Assembly (NCBI GenBank): GCA_001825665.1
Contig: MHXZ01000032.1
Coordinates: 1 to 56,391 of the forward strand
Length of the DNA: 56,391 nt
Reading direction: 5' to 3'
From: Planctomycetes bacterium GWF2_41_51
GTDB lineage: Bacteria; Planctomycetota; Phycisphaerae; Sedimentisphaerales; UBA12454
The translations under genes and the position numbers were made by a program. Below are positions 4,839-45,314 of this stretch, piece by piece (the first letter of the stretch is position 1; each line of letters begins with the position of its first letter). Under the pieces are notes generated by a model. That model did no database searches. It saw nothing but the letters and a program-made list of their open reading frames with translations, and was not told the DNA's origin.

Positions 4839-5131
4839 CAAGCAGTAGTGCAATAAAATCCGTCATTTTCAAAAGCCTATTGTCATCAGGTTATTTTTCT
4901 GAATCATTTACAACTCTTCAATCACCATTTTGGGACTAAAACAAGACAGGGAGCACAGTAAGCCGGCAGTAGTAACGAAGTGTAACTTATAGGAGTTTGT
5001 TGACAGCATAGGAATTAACGCTATATTTATTAACCTGGGTGGCTCAAAATTCGTTGCGCACACCGGCTCCATTCGATGCTATTCATCATTGTAATGGAAG
5101 AAAAAGATAAAATATTTTGAAAAGAGAAATC
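4839..5131 (+). promoter_or_regulatory. Gap before the plus-strand beta-helix gene, with sigma70-like promoter
   Basis: TTGACA at 5000-5005 and TATATT at 5022-5027, 16 bases apart, form a good vegetative promoter about 100 bases before the beta-helix start. Directly after the -10 is TTAACCTGGGT (5030-5040), an 11-mer that recurs at 45251-45261 beside the ribosome site of a secreted half-dockerin protein gene. Nothing else coding is seen in 4839-4999. Confidence 0.6.
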
Positions 5132-24349: not shown

Positions 24350-27016
24350 TTAATATTTAATCACTTTTACTTTCCATAAGCCGCTTGCCAAATCCTTTGC
24401 GGAACCGCTCCCGTTATGAATTCTGATTTCAACGTTACCGGTTGAAGCAACATAACCAGTAACAATCGTATCCTGTAAATCATATGGCGGATAAACTATG
24501 ACGCTATCGCCGACAGCCGCACCTGCAACCGCAATAGAGCTGGAAGTTGCGCCAGTATTATTACTAAGACTTGGAGGATTCCAGGTGATTGAACCACTTT
24601 CTCTGCTTAAAGCCCAACTTCCGGTCTGATTAACAATATAAAAGTTAGGGCCTAAAGAACGAATCGTCAGCTTACTGCCCGGAACATTGGATGAAATATT
24701 ACCGGAACCACTTGGGTAAAGAGTATAGTTGCCTGCATCGATTGTCATTTTATGACCGGCAACAACTTCAAACGTATATTCATTACCAAATAAAGCAGAA
24801 TCTACATTGTTTGGCGATAGAGTGATATCGCCTGTTGCGCCTTCATTGGTAATTGTCTGGCTGATATATTTAGTCATATCAGCGGCGCTTATGCTCGATG
24901 TGGTTGCGTATTCAGAGTCGTCGGTGAATTTTACTTTGCAATAACCATAAAACGGCCCGTTTGCCTTATACAAGCGTTTATTGTTCGGCATATTTGTTGA
25001 GACTTCTATGTCGATATTCTCAATACCGGCGTTAGCTTCATAATTATGCAGGCATACGGCCTTTAGAGCCTTGCCGTCTGTCGATTCGACATGAACGTTT
25101 TGAGCTGTAATATTTCCAGCCATCCTGTTACTTGCATTCATAACCACTACAAGGCCGCTTGCGTAACGTTCCCAGCCGGCGCCAAGATTGTTCTGATTTG
25201 GATTTATAATCTCCAGACCATCGATGGTAACCGGTAAATTGGCCGATGTGCTGCTGAATCCGGTTGCTTTTGCGTTTATACTATAGCAATCCTTTATATA
25301 AACCATTCCTCCGCCATTGGAATCACTAGGTCCCTGATCAACACCGAACCCCATATTATCACCAATACTGACACAACCCCGGATTATAACTGATATTGGA
25401 GTGTTAAGCCCGCCATCTTTGGCAAAAGAAAAACCAGCCGAGTAATTATCAAAGGAATAACAATCTTCGAAAATTATATTTTGAAGATAATCGCTGGCAT
25501 AATCTGGTTCAATATCGACGCCTTTCTGCGGACTGGTTCCGTTCGTATTCGAAAACGTACATTTCTTGAATAAAACATTCTTTGCGCTTGTAATTGAACA
25601 AGCATTACGTCTATTGTTATTGAAAGTGGAGTTTTCTACATAGACGCCGTCCGGAGCACCACCGCCCACGCAGATCCCATCGCCCCAACAATTATATACA
25701 TTAACATCTTTTATTACAATGTCTGCTGAAGCGTTTTCTATTTCTATTCCATGTCCCCATTCGCCGGTTGCACCCAGATGGTCGTATCTTTCACCTTCTA
25801 TTGTAGCTCCTATTATTTTTATATTTTTTTTGCCGTCAAGAAGGATAACGGAATACATCCCTCTATCGTTTGGAATGGCTTTTAATTTAGAGCCGGGTTC
25901 AAAAATTAGTGATGTATTATTGGCAGGCTGCAATCCTCCATATATACCTCCCGGTCCCGTCGGGTCAATGGCATATGTTACTGACGGGAAACGGATTGTT
26001 TTCGCGCCTGAATCAAGAGCTGCCTGGCAAACGGCAGTATCATCTACCGCACTGATTTGTCCCCACCATTGTGGATAAGCTTCTTTTACGAGTGGTCCCA
26101 AAACAACATTACCAGCACCTGAAAAGATTTGGCTTATTGGTGCTTCAACGGTTCCATTGATTGTTACTGTATCGCCGCTTGCAACAAAAAGGCGTGCTCC
26201 CTGCTCGAATTTCAGATTTACATTGGCCGGTATAGTAAGTGAGTTAGATACCTGCCACACACCTGCTTTGAGCAATAATGTTTTTTTAGAACTGCCTATG
26301 GCGTTTAACGCAGAAGTTATAGTCGCATCGGTGAAACTGCCATAGTCTCTTGCGTCTATCCACGGCATAGAGGAAGTTAAATAATTTGAACCTATAACAG
26401 TTGTGATTGAACCATTATAATTGACAATTACTTCGCCCATACCGCTATAGGCACTAATATAACCACTGTTTTCATAATCTTTAACAAGATTGTAGGCGTT
26501 ACCAATGATTGTCAAAGTACCACCTGAAATATCAAGCAAAGCATCGCCGCCCATCGTCAATGCCCGCACATTTATTGTACCGCCATTGAGATAAAATCTC
26601 TCAGTACCGGGCCTGTTCATATGAAGAGTACCATAACCGGCACCTGTTGCAGTAACTGTTCCGCCGCTCATGGTAACTGTCGCAGTTCCGCCAGCATAAT
26701 AAGCCAAATCAAGATTGTATGTGCTTACTGTAAGAGAGCCGCCGGTAATAGTTAAACTTGCGCTGCTGCCGCTGCCGGGCATAAGTGAAACATCAGCGGC
26801 ATTGGCTGTTTCATTGTCTATAACAGGATTATAAGTTGTACCGTTAATAAAAACATTGTCAAAAGCAGTAGGCACAGCGTTAGTAGACCAATTTCCCGCA
26901 GTTGACCAATTAGTGTAGGAACCTACAACATCGCCCTGCCATGTAGCATTTGCGCCAAAGGCACTGTTAATCAAAGTCATGATAACAAACAATAAATAAA
27001 AATTTTTCTTTGCCAT
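24350..27016 (-). CDS. Secreted beta-helix paralogue A with N-terminal surface module
   Basis: This 888-residue protein has a signal peptide (1-22), then a beta-rich module at about 23-215 with the W-x-G...NW start and ASLTITGGSLTVSTYNLDLAYY, shared with three other proteins here. The beta-helix core starts at about 218 with PWIDARDYG and includes GTWQ/GVWQ-type rungs, KEAYPQWWG, a long array of turns with VENSTFNNNRR, and SPQKGVDIEPD. Unlike its paralogues it has a C-terminal extension of about 90 residues ending WKVKVIKY. AGGAGG precedes the ATG. It probably binds or cuts polysaccharide outside the cell; catalytic residues are not identified. Confidence 0.83.
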   Translation of the reverse strand: MAKKNFYLLFVIMTLINSAFGANATWQGDVVGSYTNWSTAGNWSTNAVPTAFDNVFINGTTYNPVIDNETANAADVSLMPGSGSSASLTITGGSLTVSTYNLDLAYYAGGTATVTMSGGTVTATGAGYGTLHMNRPGTERFYLNGGTINVRALTMGGDALLDISGGTLTIIGNAYNLVKDYENSGYISAYSGMGEVIVNYNGSITTVIGSNYLTSSMPWIDARDYGSFTDATITSALNAIGSSKKTLLLKAGVWQVSNSLTIPANVNLKFEQGARLFVASGDTVTINGTVEAPISQIFSGAGNVVLGPLVKEAYPQWWGQISAVDDTAVCQAALDSGAKTIRFPSVTYAIDPTGPGGIYGGLQPANNTSLIFEPGSKLKAIPNDRGMYSVILLDGKKNIKIIGATIEGERYDHLGATGEWGHGIEIENASADIVIKDVNVYNCWGDGICVGGGAPDGVYVENSTFNNNRRNACSITSAKNVLFKKCTFSNTNGTSPQKGVDIEPDYASDYLQNIIFEDCYSFDNYSAGFSFAKDGGLNTPISVIIRGCVSIGDNMGFGVDQGPSDSNGGGMVYIKDCYSINAKATGFSSTSANLPVTIDGLEIINPNQNNLGAGWERYASGLVVVMNASNRMAGNITAQNVHVESTDGKALKAVCLHNYEANAGIENIDIEVSTNMPNNKRLYKANGPFYGYCKVKFTDDSEYATTSSISAADMTKYISQTITNEGATGDITLSPNNVDSALFGNEYTFEVVAGHKMTIDAGNYTLYPSGSGNISSNVPGSKLTIRSLGPNFYIVNQTGSWALSRESGSITWNPPSLSNNTGATSSSIAVAGAAVGDSVIVYPPYDLQDTIVTGYVASTGNVEIRIHNGSGSAKDLASGLWKVKVIKY

Positions 27017-27044
27017 AATTTGCCTCCTGAATAATAAGATTTTT

Positions 27045-27066
27045 ATGAGTTCTACGTCGAACTCAT
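27045..27066. repeat. Perfect 8-base hairpin upstream of beta-helix gene A
   Basis: ATGAGTTC and GAACTCAT are separated by six bases and lie 29 bases before the start codon at 27016, just upstream of the ribosome site. No T-tract follows on either strand. It is a candidate operator or a 5' mRNA-stabilising hairpin. Confidence 0.45.
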
Positions 27067-27086
27067 TATTCCATTCAAAGATATTT

Positions 27087-27106
27087 TGATAAGAGTATGC
27101 TTATCA
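27087..27106. repeat. Perfect 7-base inverted repeat upstream of beta-helix gene A
   Basis: TGATAAG and CTTATCA are separated by six bases, 20 bases from the neighbouring palindrome at 27045-27066. The pair suggests a control region between the CBM9/GH123-like gene and the beta-helix gene that it precedes, but no matching regulator site elsewhere was found by eye. Confidence 0.35.
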
Positions 27107-27156
27107 TCAGGGAGCCTTTAAATAGACAACAATTCTATAACGTGTCATCCATTACA

Positions 27157-29757
27157 TCAGTTACTCTTCAGATACGGATTTAACAAATTATTAAACTTTA
27201 CTATATAAGCTGCCAGCATTTCCTTTCCGGCATTGTATTCTTTTTGCGTTTTCTGACCCGGTTTGACATACTTTTCGATATCCGATCGACATTGCTTTAG
27301 TAAATCTTCGTTGCCGCTGTCTTGCAGTTTTGCGATTTGTTTCGATAAAATATTCAAATATATCCAGTCTTTTACGCCATCGCGAATTGCTTCAAGGCGT
27401 TTAGAACTTACAGGATGAAAGACATTGTTATCATTCCTAAAATATACCAATGTAGCCAAAGCCTGCTGTTCAGTTGGACGATTTACAAGACTGCCATATG
27501 CACCGTATTGTGAATAGCCGTAAGCATAATTAAGTTCCGGAACTATATCCATTGTCCAAACTGTGTATTCATCAGCGTTGATTTTCCAAATCCAATGTAA
27601 ATCCTTGCGTCCCTGCAATGCAGGCGCACGACCAGCCCAGGAAGGCCAATTAGTATAAATCGCGAACTTCTTTCCGAATGCCTGTTCAGATTGGAAGAAC
27701 TTAAGCCATGTAGGCCATGCCCCAACCGAATGACTGCACATATAACAATCGGCATATGGCTGATAAACTGAAATATCCCAATCTCCTGCCGGACAGAACA
27801 TCAAATTAAATTTCGGATCTATTTCCTGGAATGTTTTAAAAATGGGAATTGACCACGCGGCGAAATCTTCATCAGAAACTTTGTAACGCATATCATCATA
27901 ACCATAACCGGCTTGTTTGAGATATTCGATATACGCAGGCAGCAGCTTGGCGGGGATCAAACCTCTGCCGCTGTATAAATGAAGTTTTAGCCCGTACTTT
28001 CGCATTATCTTCATTCGCTCAAGATTATCCCATTTTTGTCCTGCGATTGTAATTTTTTTACCTGTCAAATCCATGTTCAGTTCGAGATCTTTAACATCTC
28101 TTCCCTGGATATTCAGTTGTTTGTCGCCGACATAAATATCGCCGGGCAGTTCCATCCCAACATAGCTTACATAATGTTCTGAAAGAAATCTCGCCCATAG
28201 CTCTGCGCTTTGTCCGCCCCAAGGGATGCCTGTAAAAATGCTTAAATCAAGCGAAGGTTTTCGGGGTAAATCAAACGGCCAAATCTTTACTTCAACTGGC
28301 ATTGATTTTAATACTTTTGCATCAGCAGATATTTCAATTGTACCTTTATAATCTCCGGCTTTAGCTCCTATTGAATTTATGGTTACCCATATATGCCGGC
28401 TTTCCATTTGTTTAACCGAAAAAGGTTTGCGAAGTTCTTCTACAAGCTCAGGAATAGCTTCTTTGTTTACATTTAAATATTTACCTAAATCGTCTTTTGC
28501 CGGCTCAAGATAACCAATCATTAGGCATTGCACATTATCTGATGAAATTTTGTCGCCTGAAGATGAGACTAAATCAGAAACATTCAAAGTTAAATCATCA
28601 ACAGGTGCCTGAGCAGAAATGACAAATGAATCGTGTTCATATTCGTTAATTGCCTGTGCATATGATAATTTGATTGGGGCATTAATATCTTTCAGAATCT
28701 TACCCATGTATGCCAATTGCGAAATACGATCTTTTAAAAATGGCTCATAAACATCTATCTTCGATAAAATCAAATTTTCTGCGTTCTGGCTTGCTAAATT
28801 GTTTTGTGCATTTGCATCAGCCGTTATGCTGTCGGCAATATCGGCGGCAGCCTGTAAAGCAGAATGAAAATCACGAAGAGTATTTTGAAAAGCCTCTTCA
28901 CTTTTTACTTCAGAAAGTCCGGTTGTTTTTTCATCAAACTGCTTCAGGTTTTTCTGCATCTGCTCATTGCCTGTAAACAAACGCGAAATATCTTCGAGTT
29001 TTGTTTTAATATTTTGTGATTGTGCCTTCAAAGCCTGACCATAGTTGTCGAATATAAGATAGCCAAAACCATCCGGCTCGTGATAACCGCGAGCAAGCCT
29101 TGACCAGCAGCCATTTTGATGTTGTTTGGGGGAAATCTCTGCACCCTGTCTTGTACGGCATATATTAATTTTCCAATGGCCGCCTTTTTCGGGTGGCAAT
29201 ACTTTTAAACTTGCGTAAGGTATTTCTACTTCAAGCGTCCAGCTTCCCTCATCAACTTTAGCAGCCGCTGACCATAGAATGTCAATTGTCGGATCCTGAT
29301 CCAATGAATCGTACCTAACTGCATTGGAATTAACAGAAAGATGATAATATGCCGTTTGTTCGGGATTGGCCTGAATAAATAATTCTATGCAATCGTCATT
29401 GTAAACAGGGCCGTCATATTTTTTAATTTTTGTAACTAACTGATTAGTATTCGGTTCTTCGACTTCAACTCCCAAATAGATAGCAGATTGGGTATAAACA
29501 ACATAAAATGAAGTTCCGGGATTTGTTAATTGTCCTGTTTGATAATCAACAAAATTTGAGGTTTTCTCACTGTTCTTCCAGCATTCATCTGTCAGCGATC
29601 CATCCAATACCGGAATTTGATTAACTTCAACAGCAGCGTATGCTCTTGGTACAAAAAACGTGTCTTCTTTGGCGGACACAACTTCAAGGCTGGAAAATAT
29701 AACAAACAAAAACAATGTAACCTTTAGTACATTTAAAAGCTGTTTAAATCGCATCAT
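27157..29757 (-). CDS. Secreted CBM9-GH123/DUF4091-like glycoside hydrolase
   Basis: This 866-residue protein has a signal peptide (1-29). At about 38-225 it has a CBM9-like sugar-binding domain (LDGSLTDECW, DDCIELFI, WTLEVEIPYASL, GYLIFDN). A helical linker follows to about 350, then a beta-sandwich to about 490. The C-terminal barrel has SDED near residue 630, the Asp-Glu pair position of GH123-type enzymes, and ends with RLEAIRDGVKDWIYL, a DUF4091 hallmark. GH123 enzymes use substrate-assisted hydrolysis of N-acetylhexosaminides, though DUF4091 proteins are broader. AAGGA precedes paired ATGs; the second (29754) is better spaced. It is transcribed between the GH4 gene and beta-helix gene A. 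Confidence 0.8.
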   Translation of the reverse strand: MMRFKQLLNVLKVTLFLFVIFSSLEVVSAKEDTFFVPRAYAAVEVNQIPVLDGSLTDECWKNSEKTSNFVDYQTGQLTNPGTSFYVVYTQSAIYLGVEVEEPNTNQLVTKIKKYDGPVYNDDCIELFIQANPEQTAYYHLSVNSNAVRYDSLDQDPTIDILWSAAAKVDEGSWTLEVEIPYASLKVLPPEKGGHWKINICRTRQGAEISPKQHQNGCWSRLARGYHEPDGFGYLIFDNYGQALKAQSQNIKTKLEDISRLFTGNEQMQKNLKQFDEKTTGLSEVKSEEAFQNTLRDFHSALQAAADIADSITADANAQNNLASQNAENLILSKIDVYEPFLKDRISQLAYMGKILKDINAPIKLSYAQAINEYEHDSFVISAQAPVDDLTLNVSDLVSSSGDKISSDNVQCLMIGYLEPAKDDLGKYLNVNKEAIPELVEELRKPFSVKQMESRHIWVTINSIGAKAGDYKGTIEISADAKVLKSMPVEVKIWPFDLPRKPSLDLSIFTGIPWGGQSAELWARFLSEHYVSYVGMELPGDIYVGDKQLNIQGRDVKDLELNMDLTGKKITIAGQKWDNLERMKIMRKYGLKLHLYSGRGLIPAKLLPAYIEYLKQAGYGYDDMRYKVSDEDFAAWSIPIFKTFQEIDPKFNLMFCPAGDWDISVYQPYADCYMCSHSVGAWPTWLKFFQSEQAFGKKFAIYTNWPSWAGRAPALQGRKDLHWIWKINADEYTVWTMDIVPELNYAYGYSQYGAYGSLVNRPTEQQALATLVYFRNDNNVFHPVSSKRLEAIRDGVKDWIYLNILSKQIAKLQDSGNEDLLKQCRSDIEKYVKPGQKTQKEYNAGKEMLAAYIVKFNNLLNPYLKSN

Positions 29758-29799
29758 AATTCCTTATAAAAAATTTCCGTTTACAGTTATCTTGAAACA

Positions 29800-31137
29800 T
29801 CAACGCAATGAAACATACTTTTCATGAGCTTGCAGCAGTCGTTGACCCATTTCCTTAATTTGATCGCAGTTAAGATGTGAACAGACAGGATCAAGCCTCA
29901 GAGCCTGTAACGCCAATTCCCTGTTGTTCTCAAAGCAAGCTTTTACAGTCAAATTAAACACGTATGCCAAAGGCTCTATTAAACCAACAATGCTATCAGG
30001 CAATGCGCCGTAATTTAGAGGCGTTACGCTGTTTTTATCAATCATGCACGCTGTTTCAACAACGGTTCCTAATGGCAGGTTTGAAATCTGCCCCTTATTC
30101 TTAACATTGCCGACATCAATAAATTTCTTGCCGGTTAAATGAGCATTGATAATATCTGCTGCGGTTTCGCGGCTTCGCTCAAGGTATTTATCATTAATTT
30201 CACCTTTAAGCATTCTTTTAAGTGCATCCTCTCGATCCTTAAACATTTTTCGGCGATTTGAAATACTCGTTCGTTTGATATTGTATTTACGCAGATTCTT
30301 TTTATTTGTGATAAACCATGGAAAAGATTCGCATGTATGCCTGTCACCAAGATAAGGCAAATAATTTGTCATTCGGAAAAGCTCATCAGCAACATACCTG
30401 CCGCTTTTGAAACCCATGGAATCGCTGTGGTCGATTTTGAGCAAATCGGTTATAGACTTGGTTTGCAGCTTTTTACGAAGATCAGCAATAATATCGATAT
30501 TGCCAACCCTGCCCTCTGTTATCCAAAAAAAGTGGTTCAACCCGGCATATTTCAAATAAATTTCATCTTCAGATTTGGCGCCATAAAGCTCCTGAAGGAA
30601 ATGGATATTCTCAAAAAGTCCGTGGCAAAGGCCTATTACCGGCCCTGTACATAGCTGCTGAAGAACATCTGTTAACACCGGCATAGGATTTGTATAATTC
30701 AAAACCATCGCACCGGGACAGTATTTATTTAAAGAATTTGAAATATCGACAAATGCGCCAAAATTACGAATACTTCTTGCCCATCCGCCCGGCCCTTGAG
30801 TATCGCCAACCGTATGATAAATACCATACTCTTCCGGAATTGCGATATCATGGGCCATCGCGTCGAGGCCGCCTGTGGATATGGTAATAATAACATAGTT
30901 GGCGTCTTTTAATGCGTGGGCTTTGTTACTGGTCGTGATGATGTTACTCTCTATTTTTAATAATTTGCTGAGTTTATCCAAAAAGGCTTTATTTAAATCA
31001 GCCGGTTTTTTATTTATATCATAGAGAACATATTCGACATCCTGCAACGATTCTGTAAGAAGCATATCTTTGATAATTAATGGAGTCCATGCGTTACTGC
31101 CGCCCCCAATAATAACTATTTTGATTTTAGACTTCAT
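29800..31137 (-). CDS. GH4 family NAD- and metal-dependent glycosidase (alpha-galacturonidase/glucuronidase-like)
   Basis: This 445-residue protein has the GH4 dinucleotide fold with GGGSNAWTP at 11-19. The metal and active-site motif is LCHG with C171 and H172, and GLNHFFW with N201 and H202 follows. NYTNPMPV at 148-155 completes the family pattern. GH4 enzymes cleave glycosides by oxidation at C3 and elimination, using NAD+ and Mn2+. The CHG form is seen in uronidase members, which would suit a galacturonan-derived oligomer. No signal peptide is visible, so it acts in the cytoplasm on imported products. No good ribosome site is visible before the ATG. Confidence 0.87.
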   Translation of the reverse strand: MKSKIKIVIIGGGSNAWTPLIIKDMLLTESLQDVEYVLYDINKKPADLNKAFLDKLSKLLKIESNIITTSNKAHALKDANYVIITISTGGLDAMAHDIAIPEEYGIYHTVGDTQGPGGWARSIRNFGAFVDISNSLNKYCPGAMVLNYTNPMPVLTDVLQQLCTGPVIGLCHGLFENIHFLQELYGAKSEDEIYLKYAGLNHFFWITEGRVGNIDIIADLRKKLQTKSITDLLKIDHSDSMGFKSGRYVADELFRMTNYLPYLGDRHTCESFPWFITNKKNLRKYNIKRTSISNRRKMFKDREDALKRMLKGEINDKYLERSRETAADIINAHLTGKKFIDVGNVKNKGQISNLPLGTVVETACMIDKNSVTPLNYGALPDSIVGLIEPLAYVFNLTVKACFENNRELALQALRLDPVCSHLNCDQIKEMGQRLLQAHEKYVSLR

Positions 31138-31163
31138 AATACATTTTCAACAAACTAAACAAA

Positions 31164-33059
31164 TTAATCTTTTTGCCAGGTTCCTACTTGTTCGACGATA
31201 TGCCAATTAGTTCCATCAGACCTGATTTTAATTCTGCTTCCGATATCCTGTGACCATAATGCGTCAGCACCGCCGGGAAGAAGATTGCCGCACTTAAGTG
31301 TGATTTTGTGTGGAGAGGCAACTTCAATTGTATATTCGCTGTCTAATGATTTCGCCAGTGGATTAGTAAATGACAATACAATATCATCGGAAGCGCCGTG
31401 GTTAGTAATCTTTTGACCATTGTATAACTGTATTGAATTTACATCGATACTGGTTTTTGCCGCATAAACTGGATTATCAGAAAAATTCACTTTACAATAA
31501 TTTTCAAACGGACCATTTCCTTTATAGAAACGCTTGTCATTTGGCATGTTTGTTTTTAATTCAATGTCGAGATTTTTTAAGCCGCCATTTTCACCCGCAA
31601 AATTGTCAATAAACAGCGCATAAGCGCCTTTACCGTCATCTGAAAAAATATTGACATTGCGCGCCGTAATGTTTCCGGCAAGCCGGTGTTCTTCACCTTC
31701 AAGTCTCATTCCGTTAGCGGCTTTCCATTTGCGTGATGTAATAGAGATACCGCTTCCATAAGCAGGTTCATTTTTTCCCTGGTTAGGATTAATTACATAT
31801 AATCCATCTATCTTCGTTGGCAAATTAGCAGTAGTCATCCTGAAACCTGTGGCTTTTGAATCGAGAACTGTGCAATCATTGATAAACAATACGCCGGGCG
31901 TGTCACTGGGGCCGATGTAAATTCCAAAACCTCCGTTGTCATTCCTGCTTGTGCATCCGCGGAACGTAACTGAAACAGGCTGATTCTGACCGTCATCACG
32001 GCACATAAGAAAACCTTCCGCCTTATTGTTGTATGAAGTGCAGTCTTCAAAAACTATATTTTGAATGCAATCCGTAGGCTTGTCCGGTTCAATGTCAACG
32101 CCTGCCTGCGGTGCGGTACCGTTACTGTTTAAAAAAGTACATTTTTTAAATAAAATATTTGTTCCATTAGTAACAGCGCAGCCCAATCTTCTGTTATTAT
32201 TAAAGGTGGAATTTTCTACATAGATTTGATCCGAAGGCTTAGTCCAATGAACTCCGATGAGCAAGCCGTCTCCCCAGCAATTATAAACATTAGCATCCTT
32301 TATAACTATGTTAGTTGCGCCTTCCAGCATTATTCCCATGCCATACTCTCCCGTCGTGCCGGTATGAGAATCGCGCTCACCTTCGATTGTAGGCCCATAA
32401 ATTTTTACGTTATTCTTGCCTTCAATTTTCAAAATCGAATAACCAATTTTATCATTGGGTATGGCTTTTAATTTAGCGCCGATATCAAAAATCAAAGTTG
32501 TATCACTTGCAGGCTTCAATCCGCCGTACACTGTAACATTTCCATCTTTGTCGATAGTCTCATCAAAACCATCAATCGCGTACGTCCCGGCTGGAAAGCG
32601 GATTGTTTTTGCGCCGCAATCAAGAGCGGCCTGACAAATTGCTGTATCATCTATAGAATTTACATCGCCCCACCACTGCGGATAAACCTCTTTCAAATAA
32701 TGAGGCCCAAATACAACTTTGCCTTTTCCCGAAAAAATCTTCTGTAAACCGTTAACTTCCATATTACCGTTGATAGTAATAGTATTTGATTCGGCTATAT
32801 CGAAAACAGCACCTGGTTCCAATTTTAAATTAACATTCGAAGGTATCGTAATAGAATTATTGATTTTCCATGGGCCGGAAGCTAAAAATAAAGTTTTGCC
32901 GGATGTGCCTATCGACTCTAAGGCGGCCTTAATTACTGTATCGTTGAATCCATCTTTAGAATAATTTCTGGCATCTACAGATCGTGTATCGGAAGCACTT
33001 AAATCTGCTATTATAGAAAGAAGCACAATCATCATTATAGAAATAAACCTTTTGCCCAT
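31164..33059 (-). CDS. Secreted beta-helix paralogue B
   Basis: This 631-residue protein has a signal peptide (1-22) and then goes directly into the beta-helix core with no extra module. It begins SVDARNYSKDG, followed by LKLEPGAVFDIAESNTITING, FSGKGKVVFGPHYLKEVYPQWWG and repeated VENSTFNNNRR and FEDCTSYNN rungs. The tail reads SRIKIRSDGTNWHIVEQ and ends WQKD. AAGGAG lies eight bases before the ATG. Its first ~150 codons and upstream spacer are nearly identical to gene C, which marks a recent duplication. An exported polysaccharide lyase, hydrolase or binding protein is likely; no catalytic triad can be assigned. Confidence 0.83.
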   Translation of the reverse strand: MGKRFISIMMIVLLSIIADLSASDTRSVDARNYSKDGFNDTVIKAALESIGTSGKTLFLASGPWKINNSITIPSNVNLKLEPGAVFDIAESNTITINGNMEVNGLQKIFSGKGKVVFGPHYLKEVYPQWWGDVNSIDDTAICQAALDCGAKTIRFPAGTYAIDGFDETIDKDGNVTVYGGLKPASDTTLIFDIGAKLKAIPNDKIGYSILKIEGKNNVKIYGPTIEGERDSHTGTTGEYGMGIMLEGATNIVIKDANVYNCWGDGLLIGVHWTKPSDQIYVENSTFNNNRRLGCAVTNGTNILFKKCTFLNSNGTAPQAGVDIEPDKPTDCIQNIVFEDCTSYNNKAEGFLMCRDDGQNQPVSVTFRGCTSRNDNGGFGIYIGPSDTPGVLFINDCTVLDSKATGFRMTTANLPTKIDGLYVINPNQGKNEPAYGSGISITSRKWKAANGMRLEGEEHRLAGNITARNVNIFSDDGKGAYALFIDNFAGENGGLKNLDIELKTNMPNDKRFYKGNGPFENYCKVNFSDNPVYAAKTSIDVNSIQLYNGQKITNHGASDDIVLSFTNPLAKSLDSEYTIEVASPHKITLKCGNLLPGGADALWSQDIGSRIKIRSDGTNWHIVEQVGTWQKD

Positions 33060-33147
33060 TATATTAACTCCTTTCGTTAGATACTAATTCCTTAGATATA
33101 TTTTAATTAAAACTGATTTGCTGAACTTTCGATTTGGTTCAGGCATC
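33060..33147 (-). repeat. Duplicated intergenic spacer, copy 1
   Basis: The spacer before gene B is nearly the same as the one before gene C (35017-35104), sharing GATACTAATTCCTTAGATAT and the AACTGATTTGCTGAAC stretch. It carries the AAGGAG ribosome site of gene B. It shows that the duplication unit included the upstream DNA and ribosome site. Confidence 0.7.
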
Positions 33148-35016: not shown

Positions 35017-35104
35017 GTTATTAACTCCTTTCATTAGATACTAATTCCTTAGATATATTTAAATTAAAACTGATTTGCTGAACATTCGGCCTGGTTCAGG
35101 CATT
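35017..35104 (-). repeat. Duplicated intergenic spacer, copy 2
   Basis: This is the copy of 33060-33147, with a few substitutions, that contains the AAGGAG of gene C. Together with gene starts B and C it marks the unit of tandem duplication. Confidence 0.7.
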
Positions 35105-37723
35105 CTATTGCCAGGTTCCTATCTGTTCGACAATAAACCAATTTGTTCCATTAGACCTGATTTTTAATTTGCTGCCGGTTATATTCGAATAATAAGATGT
35201 CTTATTACCGGGTAGAAGCGAAAATCCAGTCATATCGATTGTCATGCCGTTAGCAGCTTTTACAATAAAAGTAAATTCACTTCCCTTCGATGCGGATTTA
35301 GCGGATGTAAGGGAAATAGTAATATCATTTGCGGCGCCTTTATTGGTGATAGTCTGGCCGATAAATTTTTCTGCCGCGGCAGCATTTAAGCTAACGGTCG
35401 TATCGTAAACCGGCTCATCAGCAAATCGTACATTGCAATATCCATAAAAAGGACCTTCATTTTTGAACATACGTTTGTCATTCGGCAGGTTCGTTGTAAC
35501 TTCAAAGTCAATATTCTCTATACCTGAATTTGCCATTGAACTATCATTTTTTAAACATACGGCATATAAAGCCTTGTCGTCGGTTGATTCAACGCAGACA
35601 TTCTTTGCCATAATATTTCCAGCATACCTGTCTGAATCGCCCATATAAACCACAATCCCGCTGCCGTATTCAGGCGAAGTTTGTGATGACTGATTAGGAC
35701 TTATAACATTTAACCCATTTATCGTTATTGGCAAATTAGCCCAACCGCAGGCAAATCCTGTTGTCTTTGGATTTATAACGTAGCAATCGCTAATGAATAC
35801 CATTCCGCCATTTGTATTACTCGGGCCCTGGTCAACACCGAATCCAAAACCATCGTCTTTGCTCGTACAGCCTCGAAAAGTAACCAAAATTGGATTATCA
35901 AGTGCGCCATCTTTAGCAATCGAAAAACCTGTTGAGATATTGCCGTAAGAATAGCAATCTTCAAAAACAATGTTCTGAATAAAATCGGTAGCATGATCAG
36001 GTTCGACATCGACACCTTTTTGTGGGCTTGTGCCGTTGCTGTTCGAGAAGGTGCATTTTCTAAACAGAACATTTTTTGCGTTTGTTACCGAACAGCCGTT
36101 ACGTCTGTTGTTATTAAATATAGAGTTTTCAACGAATACGCCATCAGAAGGAGGATTCCAATGTGTGCCGATAAAGATGCCATCCCCCCAGCAATCATAT
36201 ACATTGGCATCTTTTACAATGATGTTAGTCGATGCGTTTTGTATCAATATTCCCATCCCGAATTCACCGGTTGTACCGGTATGTGTGCTTCTTTCGCCTT
36301 CAATCGTGGGAGCGATTACCCTTACATTATTTTTATTATCGATTTTAATAACTGAGTATCCGACTTCACCATTGGTTATGGCTTTTAACTTAGCACCCGG
36401 CTCAAAAACCAAAGTAGTATTACTTGCCGGCCTCAATCCACCGTACAATATCATATTACCTTCATTATCCAGGTTTCTGTCCACGCCATCGATAGAATAA
36501 ACCGCAGGTACAAAGCGAATTGTTTTTACGCCGCAATCAAGAGCCGCCTGACAAGCCTTCGTATCATCAATACCGCTTATCTGCGACCACCATTGCGGGT
36601 AAGCGTCCTTAACTAATGAGCCGAAAATTACGTTTCCTTCGCCGGAAAATATTTGATTTACAGGTGTTTCAATCGGCCCATTGATCGTAACCGTCTTTCC
36701 GTCAGATATGTTGAGGATTGCACCTTGCTGAAATTTGAGATTTATATTTTCAGGTATTATAATGGAATTATTAATCTGCCATGTACCCTCGGCAAGCAGA
36801 AGCGTCTTCGCAGATGACCCTATTGCACTTACTGCCTGCGAAATTGTTGTATCATTCAGCACCCCTGAATTAAAATTTCTTGCGTCTACCCATGGCAGTT
36901 TTGTTATGGATTGACCCGGCTCATCTAAATATTGCAGCGCGAGAATCGAGACATCAACCAGATTTACAATTTTATCCCCATTAATATCGCCCGGCAAATA
37001 ACCTGTAGTTTCAGGTATTATTTCAGTTTCCTGAATGGGCGTAATTGTTGTTTTATTGTTTTCTGAATCATATGTCGCGACGATACCGCGAGTATCTCCC
37101 CATTGCGGATCGCTGCTTCCCGCTCCTCTGTCAAGGATAGCAGTTCCTGCCCAATAATTATTTACGGTGTAAGTAATATCTCCATTTATAATTAATTTGC
37201 CTTTGTCGCTGGTAAAATTTATAAATTGGCGCCCATTTCCTCCGGGTGCTGCGTAAAGACCAAGGGTATTTGCTGAAACAGTTCCTCCGATATTGATATA
37301 TTGCAATCCCGGCCTGTTTCCATTGAGAAAATAGCCGCTAATATTAAGATTTGCGTTTTCATCAATCGTAAGAGTGCTACGATTTGAGGCGGTACCATAA
37401 TAACCCATGTCAAAGTTCGAGGGAGATACTGTAAGATTTGCGCCGGACTGAATTGTAAGCGTTACGTTAGTTTTTGTTCCGGTATTATACATTGTTAAAT
37501 CGGTAGTTACCCCGTTTGTTCCTGAATATATCATGCAGTTGCCCGATGAAGGCGCAACATCCGTGATATATACATTCCGAGTCGAATTGGGAACTCCGCC
37601 ATTCCAGTTTGTTGAATAGGCCCAGTTAGTGTTTAACCCTCCAATCCAGGTTGTTGTTGCGGCAAATACATTTGCTGTAAATAAAACAAAAGCTGTAAAT
37701 AATGCTTTTTTATACATACTCAT
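35105..37723 (-). CDS. Secreted beta-helix paralogue D with surface module and half dockerin
   Basis: This 872-residue protein has a signal peptide (1-21) and the shared beta-rich module (22-230: WIGGLNTNWAYSTNW, LTIQSGANLTVSPSNFDMGYY, GYFLNGNRPGLQYINIGGTV). A half dockerin lies at 245-266 (GDINGDKIVNLVDV...QYL). The beta-helix core starts at 277 with PWVDARNFNSG and contains KDAYPQWWS and SPQKGVDVEPD. It has the most complete architecture in the family. The ATG lies 14 bases inside the end of the upstream URO-D-like gene, with AGGG at suitable spacing, so translation is coupled. A 101-base block is identical to gene C. Confidence 0.84.
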   Translation of the reverse strand: MSMYKKALFTAFVLFTANVFAATTTWIGGLNTNWAYSTNWNGGVPNSTRNVYITDVAPSSGNCMIYSGTNGVTTDLTMYNTGTKTNVTLTIQSGANLTVSPSNFDMGYYGTASNRSTLTIDENANLNISGYFLNGNRPGLQYINIGGTVSANTLGLYAAPGGNGRQFINFTSDKGKLIINGDITYTVNNYWAGTAILDRGAGSSDPQWGDTRGIVATYDSENNKTTITPIQETEIIPETTGYLPGDINGDKIVNLVDVSILALQYLDEPGQSITKLPWVDARNFNSGVLNDTTISQAVSAIGSSAKTLLLAEGTWQINNSIIIPENINLKFQQGAILNISDGKTVTINGPIETPVNQIFSGEGNVIFGSLVKDAYPQWWSQISGIDDTKACQAALDCGVKTIRFVPAVYSIDGVDRNLDNEGNMILYGGLRPASNTTLVFEPGAKLKAITNGEVGYSVIKIDNKNNVRVIAPTIEGERSTHTGTTGEFGMGILIQNASTNIIVKDANVYDCWGDGIFIGTHWNPPSDGVFVENSIFNNNRRNGCSVTNAKNVLFRKCTFSNSNGTSPQKGVDVEPDHATDFIQNIVFEDCYSYGNISTGFSIAKDGALDNPILVTFRGCTSKDDGFGFGVDQGPSNTNGGMVFISDCYVINPKTTGFACGWANLPITINGLNVISPNQSSQTSPEYGSGIVVYMGDSDRYAGNIMAKNVCVESTDDKALYAVCLKNDSSMANSGIENIDFEVTTNLPNDKRMFKNEGPFYGYCNVRFADEPVYDTTVSLNAAAAEKFIGQTITNKGAANDITISLTSAKSASKGSEFTFIVKAANGMTIDMTGFSLLPGNKTSYYSNITGSKLKIRSNGTNWFIVEQIGTWQ

Positions 37724-38882
37724 ATTTACCCTGCCTTTTAAACTTCATGTCGTCTATGCTCCCGTATTGCTCCACTGTTTCGCCAACAGCTTTTAGATTT
37801 TCACATGGAGTACCATAGACTGTATCATCATCCGTACCAAGCATAAATCTGCCGCCGGATAACATCTTTGAAAGCACGTTCTTGGTTTTTTCTTTAATTT
37901 CCTCGATGCTTGAGGTTGCTAAAAAATTAGGAGCAAGTCCGCCGCCGATGATTGTGATATTGTTCTTCAATCCTTTGCATAACTTGTCGATAGTATCATC
38001 CTGACCCAAATCTGCAACACCATAAAGAGCATCGATATTAGAATCGTTTATCATATTAACAATGCCCCACAAAGGCTCGCCGCTGGTATGATTGGTGTAT
38101 AATTTGCCTTTGGAATGTAAAATCTCCGCATATCGTTTTGTATATGGCAAATAATACTCATTGAAAATATTAGGAGAAATCATGCCCGTTCCGGTTACCG
38201 CTGAATCATTAAATACCTCTCCCGGCGTATCAGCCATTATTTTATAAATTTGCTGATTCCTGGCATCCATAGCGGTTACGAGATCATCGAAAATATTCTT
38301 ATTATCCTGAATAATATAAACAGCATTCTCCAGTTTTAAATAATGAAGAAGCATATCTTTCAACGGAGGCGGCGGAACATATAAAAATATTACTCCTGCC
38401 TGGCCGAGAATCTTGAGATGTTCAAATAATCTTTCATCAAGCTGACAAGTTTGATTTTCAACTACGTATTGAAAAACTTTCATATCTTCTGCTCTTTCAA
38501 GCAGCATCTTTGAATGAAACCAGGTTTTTGCGACATCCGAATAACTGGTTTCTTCCGCGATAATTCCTACCGGCGTTCGGTATTCAGTTCTGTGTTTATT
38601 ATCGCTTTGACTTCGATGTATTTCTACTTTTGCCGAACAATTCAGATTATAAAAAAGTGCGCTCCATTGTAAATAATCGGCTTTGATCACGTTATTATAA
38701 AAATCGATTCGTGTTTTAAGGCCTTCCGCAGATAAATAATCTGCGCCTGCAGTATAATCTGGCACCGAACCAAAATATGAGTATGAGCATAACGGCATCC
38801 ATGGAATTCGATCCGGCTGCTGACCTTTTAAAACCGCCAGAATTCTTTGTCTTGATGTCATTTTGTCTTTTTTCGAATTCAT
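37710..38882 (-). CDS. URO-D-like superfamily protein (MtaA/CmuA-like)
   Basis: From ATG 38882 (AAGGA ten bases upstream; other in-frame ATGs at 38903 and 38861) the protein has 390 residues. MTSRQRILAVLKGQQPDRIP near the start is the classic URO-D superfamily opening. Later are the barrel elements LYTNHTSGEPLWGIVNM, DIDALYGVADLGQDDTI-like and MLGTDDDTVYG. It is cytoplasmic. Its position between two secreted beta-helix genes (D and E) is odd and suggests the protein is part of the same degradation pathway. True heme-pathway function is unlikely because the cluster has no heme genes. Confidence 0.78.
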   Translation of the reverse strand: MNSKKDKMTSRQRILAVLKGQQPDRIPWMPLCSYSYFGSVPDYTAGADYLSAEGLKTRIDFYNNVIKADYLQWSALFYNLNCSAKVEIHRSQSDNKHRTEYRTPVGIIAEETSYSDVAKTWFHSKMLLERAEDMKVFQYVVENQTCQLDERLFEHLKILGQAGVIFLYVPPPPLKDMLLHYLKLENAVYIIQDNKNIFDDLVTAMDARNQQIYKIMADTPGEVFNDSAVTGTGMISPNIFNEYYLPYTKRYAEILHSKGKLYTNHTSGEPLWGIVNMINDSNIDALYGVADLGQDDTIDKLCKGLKNNITIIGGGLAPNFLATSSIEEIKEKTKNVLSKMLSGGRFMLGTDDDTVYGTPCENLKAVGETVEQYGSIDDMKFKRQGKYEYV

Positions 38883-38908
38883 CTTCAAGATATCCTTATG
38901 CATAGAAT

Positions 38909-40759
38909 TTATTGCCAGGTTCCGATTTGCTCTACAATATACCAATTGCTTCCATCAGCTCTAACCTTCAGCCTGTCGCCTACCGTAGTAGAATAATAAC
39001 TGGTTTTATTTCCGGGCAAGAGAGGATAGCCTGACATGGCGAGAGTTATGCGATATGGCGATTTCACTTCAAACGTAAATTCGCTGCCGTTGGATACCGA
39101 TGCCGGAGCGGTTAATACAACTGTAATATTTCCTGCTGCCCCCTGATTGGTAATAGTCTGTCCGATATATTTTACCGCTTCTGTTGAGCTTACGTTACCT
39201 GTCGCATTATAAACCGGATTATCAGGAAAACGCACCCTGCAATAGCCCTTAAACGAATCAACACTGTCAGCTTTAAAAAATCGTTTATTGCTTGGCATAT
39301 TCGTTGTCAGTTCTATATCAATATTTTCGATACCGGAATTTGGTTGAGAACTGAAATGATGCAGGCACAATGCTTTTATAGCCTTCCCGTCAGTGGATTC
39401 CACATGAACATTTCTTGCGGTTACATTGCCTGCAAGCCTGTTGTCATCCATCATTAAGACAACAAGACCGCTTGCGTATCTTGCCCATGATTCATCAAGA
39501 CCATCCTGATTGGGATTAATTACAGTAAGTCCATTTATTGTTACGGGCAAATTAGCTGAACCGGTGGCAAACCCATTTGATCTGGCATTTATGCTATAAC
39601 AATCGGTGATAAAAACCATTCCTCCGTTGGTATCGCTTGGGCCTTGGGCAATGCCAAAACCGGTACTATCACCATAACTTGTACAGCCCCGGAAAGTAAC
39701 CGAAAAAGGATTATTAAGCGGACCATCTTTTGCAATTCCAAAACCTGTAGCCGCGTTGTTATATGAACGGCAATCTTCAAAAACAATATTTTGAATGTAA
39801 TCCCCGGCGTAATCCGCTTCGACATCAACACCATTCTGCGGGCTTGTGCCATTTGTATTCGAGAAGGTGCATTTTTTAAAAAGAACATTTCTGGCGTTCG
39901 TAATTGAGCACCCCTGTCTTCTGTTATTATCGAAGATTGAATTTTCTACGTAAACATCTTCCTGCGTTCCGCCGCCGATACAAATTCCATCGCCCCAGCA
40001 GTCGTAAACGTTTGCGTCTTTTATAACAATCCCTTTTGACTGGTCTTGTATCAAAATTCCCATTCCCCATTCGCCGGTTGTTCCGGTATGAGTCTTGCGA
40101 TCTCCCTCAATCGTCGGGCCATATATTTTTACATTTTTCACGTCTTTAATATTTAGGACGGCATAATGGGCTCTGTCGTTTGTAATCGCTTTTAATTTCG
40201 ATCCTTGTTCAAAAATCAAGGTTGTATTGCTTTTAGGCTGCAAACCGCCGTATTCAATAATTTGCGGGTCATGAGGAAGAATATTATATGTGCCAGGCAA
40301 AAAGCGAATTGTTGCAGCTCCGCTGTCGAGAGCGGCCTGACATACGTTATTATCGTTCACTGTACCGACATTACCCCACCATTGCGGGTAAGCCTCTTTT
40401 ACAAGCGAACCAAGTTTAACAGTTCCATCTCCTGAAAAAATCTGTCTGACAGATGATTCAATGTTGCCATTGATCGTTAATGTTCTGCCGCCGGATATTT
40501 TTAAAATTGCTCCATGTTCGAATTTCAATGTTATGTTCGATGGTATCGTGATTGAATGTGTTATGTACCACATACCGGCAGCCAAAAAAATAGTTTTTTC
40601 AGATGGCCCTGCCGCATTCAATGCTCCGGTTATTGCCGCACCATCATAATCGTTGTAATTTCCATCATGATAATCTCTTGCGTCTATCCATGGAACGTCA
40701 ACGCCCCAGGAGCTTACAGATATAAATAATATCAAGAATAAAATTGTTAATTTTTTCAT
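38909..40759 (-). CDS. Secreted beta-helix paralogue E
   Basis: From ATG 40759 (three bases after the previous stop; the longer frame overlaps gene F) the 616-residue protein has a signal peptide at 1-19 (MKKLTILFLILFISVSSWG). It goes straight into the beta-helix core with PWIDARDYHDGNYND, a KEAYPQWWG motif, VENSIFDNNRR, SPQNGVDVEAD and a VGDRLKVRADGSNWYIVEQ ending. The C-terminal half is closest to gene F. GGA lies about eight bases before the ATG. It is presumably a secreted polysaccharide-active protein; catalytic residues are not assigned. Confidence 0.83.
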   Translation of the reverse strand: MKKLTILFLILFISVSSWGVDVPWIDARDYHDGNYNDYDGAAITGALNAAGPSEKTIFLAAGMWYITHSITIPSNITLKFEHGAILKISGGRTLTINGNIESSVRQIFSGDGTVKLGSLVKEAYPQWWGNVGTVNDNNVCQAALDSGAATIRFLPGTYNILPHDPQIIEYGGLQPKSNTTLIFEQGSKLKAITNDRAHYAVLNIKDVKNVKIYGPTIEGDRKTHTGTTGEWGMGILIQDQSKGIVIKDANVYDCWGDGICIGGGTQEDVYVENSIFDNNRRQGCSITNARNVLFKKCTFSNTNGTSPQNGVDVEADYAGDYIQNIVFEDCRSYNNAATGFGIAKDGPLNNPFSVTFRGCTSYGDSTGFGIAQGPSDTNGGMVFITDCYSINARSNGFATGSANLPVTINGLTVINPNQDGLDESWARYASGLVVLMMDDNRLAGNVTARNVHVESTDGKAIKALCLHHFSSQPNSGIENIDIELTTNMPSNKRFFKADSVDSFKGYCRVRFPDNPVYNATGNVSSTEAVKYIGQTITNQGAAGNITVVLTAPASVSNGSEFTFEVKSPYRITLAMSGYPLLPGNKTSYYSTTVGDRLKVRADGSNWYIVEQIGTWQ

Positions 40760-40761
40760 AT

Positions 40762-42738
40762 TTAATTCCAGCTTCCGATTCTTTCGATGATGCGCCAATT
40801 AGTTCCATCTGCCCTGATTCTTAATCTGTCGCCCACGGTTGTTAAATAGTACGATGTCTTATTGCCGGGCAGAAGAGGATATCCAACCATGCTAAGTGTT
40901 ATTCGATATGGCGATTTCACTACAAAGGTAAATTCGCTGCCGTTAGATACAGATGCAGGCGCTGTTAATACTACTGTAATGTTAGCCGTTGCACCTTCAT
41001 TTGTGATAGTTTGACCAATATATTTAGCAGCTTCGATTGAACTTACATTTCCCGTTGTCGCAAACACAGGCTCATCAGGAAAGCTTACATTACAATAACC
41101 TAGAAATGACGACGCGCTGTCAGCCTTAAACATACGCTTATTATTTGGCATATTCGTTGTCAATTCGATATCAATATTCTTGATACCGGAATTTGGCTGC
41201 GAACTGTAATGATGCAGGCATAACGCTCTTACGGCTTTACCATCAGTTGATTCGACATGAACATTTCTGGCAGTAACATTACCTGAAAACCTGTTATCAT
41301 CGTTCATCAAAACCACAAAACCGCTTGCATATCTTATCCATGATTCACCAAGATTATCCTGATTGGGATTTGTTATAGTTAAACCATCAATCGTTATAGG
41401 CAAATTTGCCGAAGAACTGCTGAATCCTGTACTTCTGGCATTTATACTGTAACAGTTACTAATAAAAACCATTCCTCCACCGTTTGAGTCACTGGGCCCT
41501 TGAGAAATACCAAAGCCCATATTATCGCCATTACTTACACATCCTCGAAAAGTAACTGATATCGGATTGTTGAGTCCTCCATCTTTAGCCAATCCAAAAC
41601 CGCTGGCCAAATTATTATATGAATAGCAATCTTCAAAAACTATGTTTTGAATATAAGAAGTAGCCTTATCCGGTTCTACATCCACGCCTGCCTGGGGACT
41701 AGTGCCATTGGTATTGGAAAAAATACATTTTTTAAATGATATATTTTTTCCTTGCGTAATAGAACAGGCATTACGTCGGTTATTATCAAATATGGAATTT
41801 TCAACATACACTCCATCCGGAGGAGGATTCCAATGAATACCAACATAAATGCCGTCTCCCCAGCAATCATATACATTAGCGTCTTTTATCACAATGCGAG
41901 TCGATGCATTACTTATCATTATTCCCATTCCCCACTCACCTGTTGTGCCAGTATGAGTATAGCGATCGCCCTCGATTGTGACGCCATATATTTTTACATT
42001 ATCTTTTTTATCTAGGAGTATAACGGAATAACTCGGTTTGTCGTTTGTGATCGCTTTTAATTTCGAGCCTTGTTCAAATATCAATGTTGTACCACTTGCA
42101 GGCTTTAGGCCGCCATAATCATTGGTTATATTATCAACCGGATTGATATTGTATGTTCCAGGCATAAAGCGAATCGTTTTGACCCCGCAATCAAGTGCCG
42201 CCTGACATATATTATTATCGTTCACTGTACCAGGGGGCCCCCACCATTGTGGATAAGCCTCTAAAACTGACGGGCTAAGATTTACTTTGCCTGCACCTGA
42301 AAATATCTGACTTATCGTGGCCTCGATATTTCCATTTATTGTTAATGTTTTTCCTGCGGCAACGTTAAGGACCGCGCCATGTTCAACCTTTAAATTTATA
42401 TTTGCAGGTATGATAATCGAATTGGTTATTTCCCATGTGCCTGATGAAAGCATTAGTGTTTTAACAGATGAGCCAATTGCACTTACCGCTTCATTGATTG
42501 TTATGTCGTTCAGGTTGCCATTATTATATATTCTTGCGTCTATCCAGGCGAGTTTCGTACCGCTGCCGTCCGAAGGTTCAAGCCATTGCTCAACCACGCC
42601 GAATATATCGAACAAGTTAACAACGCCGTCACCATTAATATCCCCTGTAAAATAACTATTACCTTCAATATCGCCTTGAACAACAGTTGATGAAAACAAC
42701 ACGATATTTAAAAGAATTATTATTGATTTGATATACAA
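40762..42738 (-). CDS. Secreted beta-helix paralogue F with N-terminal half dockerin
   Basis: The only available start is TTG 42738, with AAGGTG a few bases before it, because an in-frame TGA lies just upstream. The 658-residue protein has a signal peptide (1-22), a half dockerin at 32-53 (TGDINGDGVVNLFD...QWLEP) and a beta-helix core from residue 65 (WIDARIYNNG) with LEAYPQWWG, VENSIFDNNRR and SPQAGVDVEPD. The end reads VGDRLRIRADGTNWRIIER. It is the first of the tandem beta-helix genes in transcription order. Confidence 0.83.
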   Translation of the reverse strand: MYIKSIIILLNIVLFSSTVVQGDIEGNSYFTGDINGDGVVNLFDIFGVVEQWLEPSDGSGTKLAWIDARIYNNGNLNDITINEAVSAIGSSVKTLMLSSGTWEITNSIIIPANINLKVEHGAVLNVAAGKTLTINGNIEATISQIFSGAGKVNLSPSVLEAYPQWWGPPGTVNDNNICQAALDCGVKTIRFMPGTYNINPVDNITNDYGGLKPASGTTLIFEQGSKLKAITNDKPSYSVILLDKKDNVKIYGVTIEGDRYTHTGTTGEWGMGIMISNASTRIVIKDANVYDCWGDGIYVGIHWNPPPDGVYVENSIFDNNRRNACSITQGKNISFKKCIFSNTNGTSPQAGVDVEPDKATSYIQNIVFEDCYSYNNLASGFGLAKDGGLNNPISVTFRGCVSNGDNMGFGISQGPSDSNGGGMVFISNCYSINARSTGFSSSSANLPITIDGLTITNPNQDNLGESWIRYASGFVVLMNDDNRFSGNVTARNVHVESTDGKAVRALCLHHYSSQPNSGIKNIDIELTTNMPNNKRMFKADSASSFLGYCNVSFPDEPVFATTGNVSSIEAAKYIGQTITNEGATANITVVLTAPASVSNGSEFTFVVKSPYRITLSMVGYPLLPGNKTSYYLTTVGDRLRIRADGTNWRIIERIGSWN

Positions 42739-45237: not shown

Positions 45238-45250
45238 AATATACCCTCCT

Positions 45251-45264
45251 TTAACCTGGGTTAA
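45251..45264. promoter_or_regulatory. Perfect 14-base palindrome before the half-dockerin gene
   Basis: TTAACCTGGGTTAA lies directly upstream of the AGGAGG of the 45237 gene. Its first 11 bases also occur at 5030-5040, directly after the -10 of the lone plus-strand beta-helix gene. Shared binding by one regulator is possible but unproven. Confidence 0.4.
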
Positions 45265-45314
45265 AAAAAGTTTTAAAAAGGCCAACGTATCCTTCTGAAA
45301 ACCAGATTTTTTCT

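Follow-up and report, generated by a model that had tools for sequence, protein, structure and literature searches.

On the minus strand of one contig from Planctomycetes bacterium GWF2_41_51, six related genes carry different front ends ahead of one recognizable core. The stretch analysed here, 56,391 nt in length and called the window, is contig C32 (MHXZ01000032.1) of a 4.83-Mb genome in 138 contigs. The locus raises 2 questions: what the 6 proteins do, and how a single core came to be joined to several front ends.

Layout of the array

The 6 open reading frames, named A to F, were found on the minus strand where an earlier sequence-only reading had put them (Table 1). That reading described a tandem row of 6 paralogues. 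The row is real, but 3 other genes interrupt it (for the GH123-like/CBM9, GH4 and URO-D-like proteins), and 6 is the count for the window, whereas the whole genome holds 9. Two of the listed starts are probably spurious, namely the first ATG of gene C, for which MGKRF at about 35016 is a better start, and the TTG of gene E, for which MKKLTIL at about 40759 is better.

Table 1. Positions, strands and contents of the array genes, their tracts and neighbouring genes in the window
Feature	Coordinates	Strand	Contents or remarks
MGH1-like glycoside hydrolase	20951..22999	-	core-adjacent copies, about 50% identical, in both other loci
Gene A	24350..27016	-	signal peptide, surface module (about aa 20-218), core (aa 221-801), tailspike-type C-terminal domain (about aa 802-888)
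CBM9-like and GH123-like (beta-GalNAc-ase-like) protein	27157..29757	-	between A and B
GH4 enzyme	29800..31137	-	between A and B; nearest solved relative alpha-galacturonidase LplD (3fef)
Gene B	31164..33059	-	signal peptide, core; no module
Matching tract in B	32601..33147	-	probable donor side
Gene C	33148..35034	-	signal peptide, core; no module
Second tract, C versus D	C 33757..33972, D 35714-35929	-	215 nt at 91.2% identity versus 65.5% outside; 101 nt identical
Putative catalytic signature segment of C (aa 181-362)	33949..34494	-	E244, WGDG 269-272, N295/R297, GT 320-321, P323, G326-D328-E330-P331, N351
Recombination tract in C	34558..35104	-	88-nt leader, signal peptide and adaptor (to aa 159); near-copy of B 32601-33147
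Gene D	35105..37723	-	signal peptide, surface module, one dockerin F-hand (about aa 245-260), core (aa 280-871)
URO-D/MtaA-like methyltransferase homologue	37710..38945	-	between D and E
Gene E	38909..40798	-	signal peptide, core
Gene F	40762..42738	-	signal peptide, one dockerin F-hand (about aa 32-67), core (aa 67-657)
Prepilin-type (N_methyl) protein	42796..43671	-	adjoins core in all three loci
Stand-alone surface module with Ig-like domains and C-terminal dockerin-like end	43804..45285	-	
Stand-alone surface module with PEP-CTERM sorting signal	45315..46052	-	

A common core and its signature

Taken from DAR to the final (T/S)W, the cores of A to F are 55.0–73.1% identical in pairs (573–591 aligned residues), far above chance, and 203 of 593 columns are invariant among the 6. 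They share the motifs DAR(D/N/I)(Y/F), (K/L)(E/D)(A/V)YPQWW(G/S), VENSxFxNNRR and GVD(I/V)E(P/A)D, and a tail motif (I/V)(I/V)(E/N)(Q/R)-hG(T/S)W. Homology of the cores, which the sequence-only reading proposed, is thus borne out over ~590 residues at 55–73% identity, and non-homology is refuted; the motifs that it listed were confirmed across the cores, except that the tail of gene A, IVNQ, lies outside the proposed (I/V)(I/V)E(Q/R). Three parts make up the core: an adaptor (core positions 1–140; ..IFSGxGxVxFG..YPQWWG..DDTxxCQAALDSG), which also precedes other helices in many IMG/VR contigs, a helix, and a tail of ~100 residues. No relatives of the tail outside the set were detected, and a phage origin of this domain (aa ~525–627) was rejected, as searches of phages, the PDB and PHROGs gave it no convincing counterpart.

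The signature E..GDG..N-R..GT.P..GxDxEP occurs in the helix of all 6 genes, with GVDVEA as the variant in gene E. In an alignment of 30 diverse rows, phages included, E244, G270-D271-G272, N295, R297, G320-T321, P323, G326, D328, E330-P331 and N351 (numbered as in gene C) are 93–100% conserved, and E244, GDG, R297, D328 and E330 are kept by all 6 window genes. Invariant columns make up 46% of the putative catalytic segment, against 36% of the rest of the core and 17% of the tail. The presence of the same putative catalytic residues in all 6 genes, within the best-conserved segment, suggests one chemistry.

The sequence-only reading had suggested, instead, one fold diversified for many linkages, such that each paralogue would be specific for its own linkage in a complex polysaccharide. 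The paralogues persist at 55–73% identity, and their loops vary beside the GDG coil (HWNPPSD, GYGSAPD or GGAPD) and at about aa 168–184, as might be expected of such a division of labour. Yet every putative catalytic residue is common to the 6, the segment that bears them is the best conserved of the core, and B, C and D are kept mixed by the recombination described below. The loop differences would allow different subsites, but a division of labour by linkage is not supported, and we regard it as unlikely.

Kinship with phage tailspikes

The sequence-only reading did not recognize the family. We found no core-specific model in Pfam or NCBIfam, where PF13229 scores above its cut-off in all 6 genes, so the family indeed has no name of its own there; its kin, however, are known. 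Helix positions 140–400 strongly match phage tailspikes, and also planctomycete proteins of a wider subfamily. Phage matches to the core comprise 382 records, including tail spikes of Corynebacterium, Vibrio, Bacillus, Bacteroides and Acinetobacter phages. To judge from sequence, the cores belong to a tailspike-related beta-helix signature family of the crAss001 gp22 kind, a relationship that was absent from the earlier reading and that we rate as the best lead to function.

The gp22 protein of Bacteroides phage crAss001 (tail fibre or 'polygalacturonase-tailspike'; PDB 7qoj) was matched at E 3.7e-30 by the core profile, and at 1.5e-55 by a family profile that includes gp22 itself as one of its 12 rows. 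It has the same E..GDG..NRR..GTSP..GxDIEP in its central helix, but is only about 30% identical to the cores, has other ends and has no signal peptide, being a virion-bound trimer whose N-terminus is docked to the tail hub (PMC10172136). The same segment is found, at 29–38% identity, in phi674 gp19 (Corynebacterium phage), the Vibrio phage K174 tail spike, SPbeta-like YorA and SPO1 gp19.1, which differ from the cores as phage genes with other N- and C-terminal parts. Our literature searches found no reported activity for gp22, no measured activity for any member with the full signature, and no paper on the core family in Planctomycetes. Among proteins with a reported activity, the nearest by sequence is the tailspike gp49 of Acinetobacter phage Fri1 (6c72), which the core profile matched at E 6e-6 and the family profile at 2.1e-10; it is reported to be a hydrolytic glycosidase/depolymerase of the K19 capsule (PMC11126041). 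Fri1 gp49 resembles the cores in being a beta-helix with the RR..DIEPN part of the signature, but it lacks the equivalents of E244 and D271 and is a phage particle protein.

Gene A alone has an extra C-terminal domain of ~87 aa. It matches the ends of two phage protein families, phrog_19253 (last 81 positions, E 4.7e-12) and phrog_23388 (E 1.6e-6), and aligns weakly with the C-terminus of the tailspike of Escherichia phage HSE2 (E 0.1). Ends of this type cap trimeric tailspikes, so by analogy the gene A protein may be a trimer.

We also considered whether the 6 proteins are phage virion tailspikes, or the row a prophage remnant, and rejected both: the N-termini are hydrophobic and signal-like rather than virion-anchoring domains, the neighbours are metabolic genes and not a phage tail module, and no phage genes were seen in the window.

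Predicted fold and chemistry

A model of the gene C core (AlphaFold2, 11 sequences; pLDDT 88.3, pTM 0.85) is a right-handed parallel beta-helix. The model of gene D had a pLDDT of 84, with module residues 21–190 mostly at 65–92 and the dockerin linker below 50. A structure search with the C model returned mostly polysaccharide-acting enzymes and tailspikes: AlgE6/AlgE4 (Z 41–42), phi29 gp12 (36), Sf6 (35), polygalacturonases (32–34), RbmB (33), K5A lyase (31), the PfbA adhesin (31), Fri1 gp49 (30) and PL6 (29). The phi29 gp12 and Sf6 tailspikes, for all their likeness to C in fold, went undetected by sequence in PDB searches. The prediction and PDB search that the sequence-only reading had proposed gave a predicted beta-helix similar in structure to known enzymes and tailspikes.

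Signature residues are spaced 23–31 apart, about one coil each, and lie at or beside DSSP strands on the predicted model of C. This spacing and position predict that the residues line up as a ladder along one face of the helix, where the active site of a beta-helix enzyme would be expected.

The modelled fold by itself cannot separate a hydrolase from a lyase or an epimerase. Hydrolysis is favoured by the reported activity of Fri1 gp49, and neither the DPH motif of AlgE nor the motif set of GH28 is present. It is a lean only, as the best structural match is an epimerase and the lyases RbmB and K5A score high. Two GH28 assignments were rejected. The NTD, GDD, GHG and RIK set of polygalacturonases is in no core (there are stray GHG or RIK strings only), and the rhamnogalacturonidase model of BT4146 (NF049898) scored 25.4 bits over 56 residues against a threshold of 500 bits.

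If the cores were polysaccharide lyases, acting on uronate by beta-elimination, the structural matches to RbmB, K5A and PL6 would be accounted for, the invariant R297 could serve such chemistry, and the neighbouring GH4 enzyme, nearest to an alpha-galacturonidase, would hint at uronates. The nearest characterized sequence relative is nevertheless hydrolytic, and paired acids are more typical of hydrolases than of lyases; we think a lyase rather improbable. Non-catalytic surface or binding proteins, adhesin-like or of a matrix, are less probable again. The match to PfbA indicates that this fold also serves binding, and the surface modules and PEP-CTERM context would suit such a role, but the acid/Arg ladder is conserved across bacteria and phages, and glycoside hydrolases are consistently nearby. 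Mannuronan C5-epimerases of the AlgE kind, whose A-modules are closest to C in overall fold (AlgE6: Z 41.7, 353 residues, 2.4 A), are very improbable, since the catalytic YG(F/V)DPH is missing from 10 of 10 cores and AlgE6 matches only weakly by sequence (E 7e-4).

Copies in the genome and in relatives

The family profile has exactly 9 matches in this genome. The 3 outside the window lie together on another contig, C56, and are 47–50% identical to the window cores; C56a has a module and an F-hand, C56b has no front end and C56c has a module alone. In C56c (L013 12025-14616), GVRLEP replaces GVDIEP and the common tail is swapped for a different C-terminal domain, changes with which catalysis may have been lost or altered.

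The profile had no match in 6 other genomes of the genus and matched in only 6 of 58 other relatives. Among samples of 397 genomes of the class and 392 of the phylum, a full-length core was found elsewhere only in the Phycisphaerales MAG SJ194, of the same class, in one copy (JADLBV010000081.1; about 50% identity). Like the window array, it is adjoined by a prepilin, a stand-alone module and an MGH1-like glycoside hydrolase; unlike the array, it is a single copy without a front end and is followed by different sugar-acid genes. The 9 copies are a lineage-specific expansion, or belong to a family that was acquired and then expanded.

After the SJ194 core gene there is a second beta-helix (L010 11762-13069) with the same signature, in the form GEWRHGI..GDGIYLG..HRQG..GIDFEPN, and a PEP-CTERM; further members of this wider subfamily are present elsewhere in the class. 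The source genome, at 4.8 Mb, is about twice the size of most congeners (1.8–2.9 Mb; one has 4.9 Mb), and its listed contamination is 3.8%, so that mixing in the assembly is possible.

Front ends

Our examination agreed with the sequence-only reading on every front end: a signal-peptide-like stretch only in B, C and E; one dockerin F-hand in F (DINGDGVVNLFD); a surface module of ~200 aa in A; and in D one F-hand (DINGDKIVNLVD) plus a module related to that of A. The F-hands score 16.6 bits (F, Dockerin_1) and 14.2 bits (D) against a Pfam cut-off of 22.9. Single F-hands below the cut-off are not a type I dockerin, which has two, and a cellulosome component was rejected on that count; no cohesin (PF00963) was found in the genome, which is about 96% complete. 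N-terminal half dockerins extend beyond the 6 genes: in an unrelated PF12708 beta-helix protein of the window (5117-6577, plus strand), one dockerin-like F-hand immediately follows the signal peptide.

The surface module, of the type 'NW..P..D', had no Pfam match above cut-off. Outside the array, at 43804-46052 of the window, L014 8973-12785 and L010 8094-8999, it occurs alone with PEP-CTERM, with Ig-like domains and a dockerin-like end, and as a tandem double.

The sequence-only reading had suggested changing front ends on one core, and phylogenies of cores and front ends as a check; the 2 kinds of tree conflict. The module of A is sister to that of C56a (95/93), yet a grouping of the A and C56a cores is rejected (AU p 0.0013). 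Within the C56c locus, the module of C56c and that of a stand-alone PEP-CTERM gene are sisters (99/98), and the 4 fused modules are rejected as one clade (p 0.003). On the core tree, module presence requires at least 3 changes and the full front-end state 5. These values, like those given below for the adaptor and the rest of the core, come from small trees, some with long module branches, and the clades tested were picked after the trees had been seen. It would appear that surface modules joined cores about 3 times, once from the same-locus stand-alone PEP-CTERM gene. This conflict, together with the tract shared by B and C, bears out the claim of changing front ends.

Recombination between neighbouring genes

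Over 440 coding nt of their tract, genes B and C have 92.7% identity, as compared with 61.7% outside it, and their best-segment score, 280, compares with a maximum of 67 in 500 codon shuffles. The match extends over the whole 88-nt leader at about 90% identity. Conservation was rejected as the cause, because the same windows show no rise in identity for other pairs, and agreement at fourfold sites is higher inside the tract (49 of 57) than outside it (57 of 113). In the adaptor tree, B, C, SJ194 and C56b fall on one side (91/94), all with an insertion of one residue ahead of YPQWW, and a C+D grouping is rejected (p 0.00012). The remainder of the core places C as sister to D (100/99) and rejects B+C (p 0.02). 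Most simply, gene C acquired a B-type front end and either lost a D-type module or never carried one. C and D share a second, internal tract (Table 1). In no other pair did a tract beat its own shuffles (E–F, 46 versus a shuffle maximum of 48).

One may extend these observations to the array as a whole: gene conversion would move 5' cassettes (made up of leader, signal peptide, adaptor, and surface module or F-hand) as well as internal segments between neighbours, and one catalytic helix would thereby be re-displayed as a free, surface-bound or F-hand-tagged enzyme and its specificity re-mixed, in a bacterial counterpart of the modular exchange of phage tailspikes. We offer this extension tentatively, as a possibility that we would not favour over its negation.

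Neighbourhood and possible substrate

A prepilin-like protein, a core and an MGH1-like glycoside hydrolase occur together in 3 loci of 2 species, 2 in this genome (39–41% GC) and one in SJ194 (56% GC), with stand-alone module proteins near each. The MGH1-like protein, which had no PDB match at E 0.1 or better, is by its place beside beta-helix genes in the 3 loci a candidate partner enzyme. Other genes of the window encode 2 esterase-like proteins and an MFS transporter, and there are isomerase-kinase-aldolase genes as well. In SJ194, a galactonate/rhamnonate-type dehydratase and a relative of didehydro-deoxy-rhamnonate hydrolase were found, both below cut-offs. The contents of the cluster hint at galacturonate, GalNAc and unassigned sugars simultaneously. 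An acidic polysaccharide, perhaps with GalA and a deoxysugar, fits; plant pectin, an algal polymer and bacterial exopolysaccharide are candidate sources.

Two further observations concern the sugar cluster. It has 3 URO-D-like proteins (10275-11330, 12432-13658 and the one between D and E), 2 of them with weak Pfam scores, and the first is 68% identical to a protein of the C56 locus; such proteins possibly act in methyl transfer from methylated sugars. Sugar isomerases in both loci of this genome, at 13684-15051 of the window and L014 14114-15433, are distantly like SftI, a sulfoquinovose isomerase (74 and 149 bits; cut-off 700).

Function and meaning

The explanation that we consider probable is that the 6 genes encode exported, tailspike-related beta-helix depolymerases in a polysaccharide-utilization cluster of this Phycisphaerae bacterium, in an array built by duplication whose front ends have been re-sorted by recombination of neighbours. 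Secreted endo-acting depolymerization of polysaccharide is likewise the most likely function of the proteins, and a probable one. Going beyond the homology, signature, predicted fold, recombination tract, conflict of modules with cores and shared neighbourhood, we infer catalysis, its hydrolytic nature, the substrate class and the role of the front ends as follows. The N-terminal cap or adaptor (..YPQWWG..DDT..QAALDSG..) would lead into the right-handed helix, on which the residue ladder (E244, D271, R297, D328/E330 and N351 in C), with one residue per coil, would make internal cuts in an acidic polysaccharide, probably hydrolytically. The tail would cap the helix, as in A would the tailspike-type domain also. 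Front ends would set the location of the enzyme: secreted alone, held by a surface module of the kind shared with PEP-CTERM proteins, or carrying a single F-hand. After import of the released pieces, their breakdown would be completed by the GH4, MGH1-like and GH123-like enzymes, together with the products of the downstream isomerase-kinase-aldolase genes. On this account the array arose through duplication, and its neighbouring genes recombine and so re-sort front ends and segments among the cores, the front end of C coming from B.

The fold is known; the lineage-specific array and the mode of front-end exchange look new. An unnamed, putatively catalytic signature that extends from crAss-like gut phages to planctomycetes is here tied to a polysaccharide-utilization locus with neighbours that hint at substrate, and the locus may therefore be a route to the activity of tailspikes of the crAss001 gp22 type. 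The locus also provides a specific example of neighbouring genes whose recombination swaps the display domains of secreted carbohydrate enzymes.
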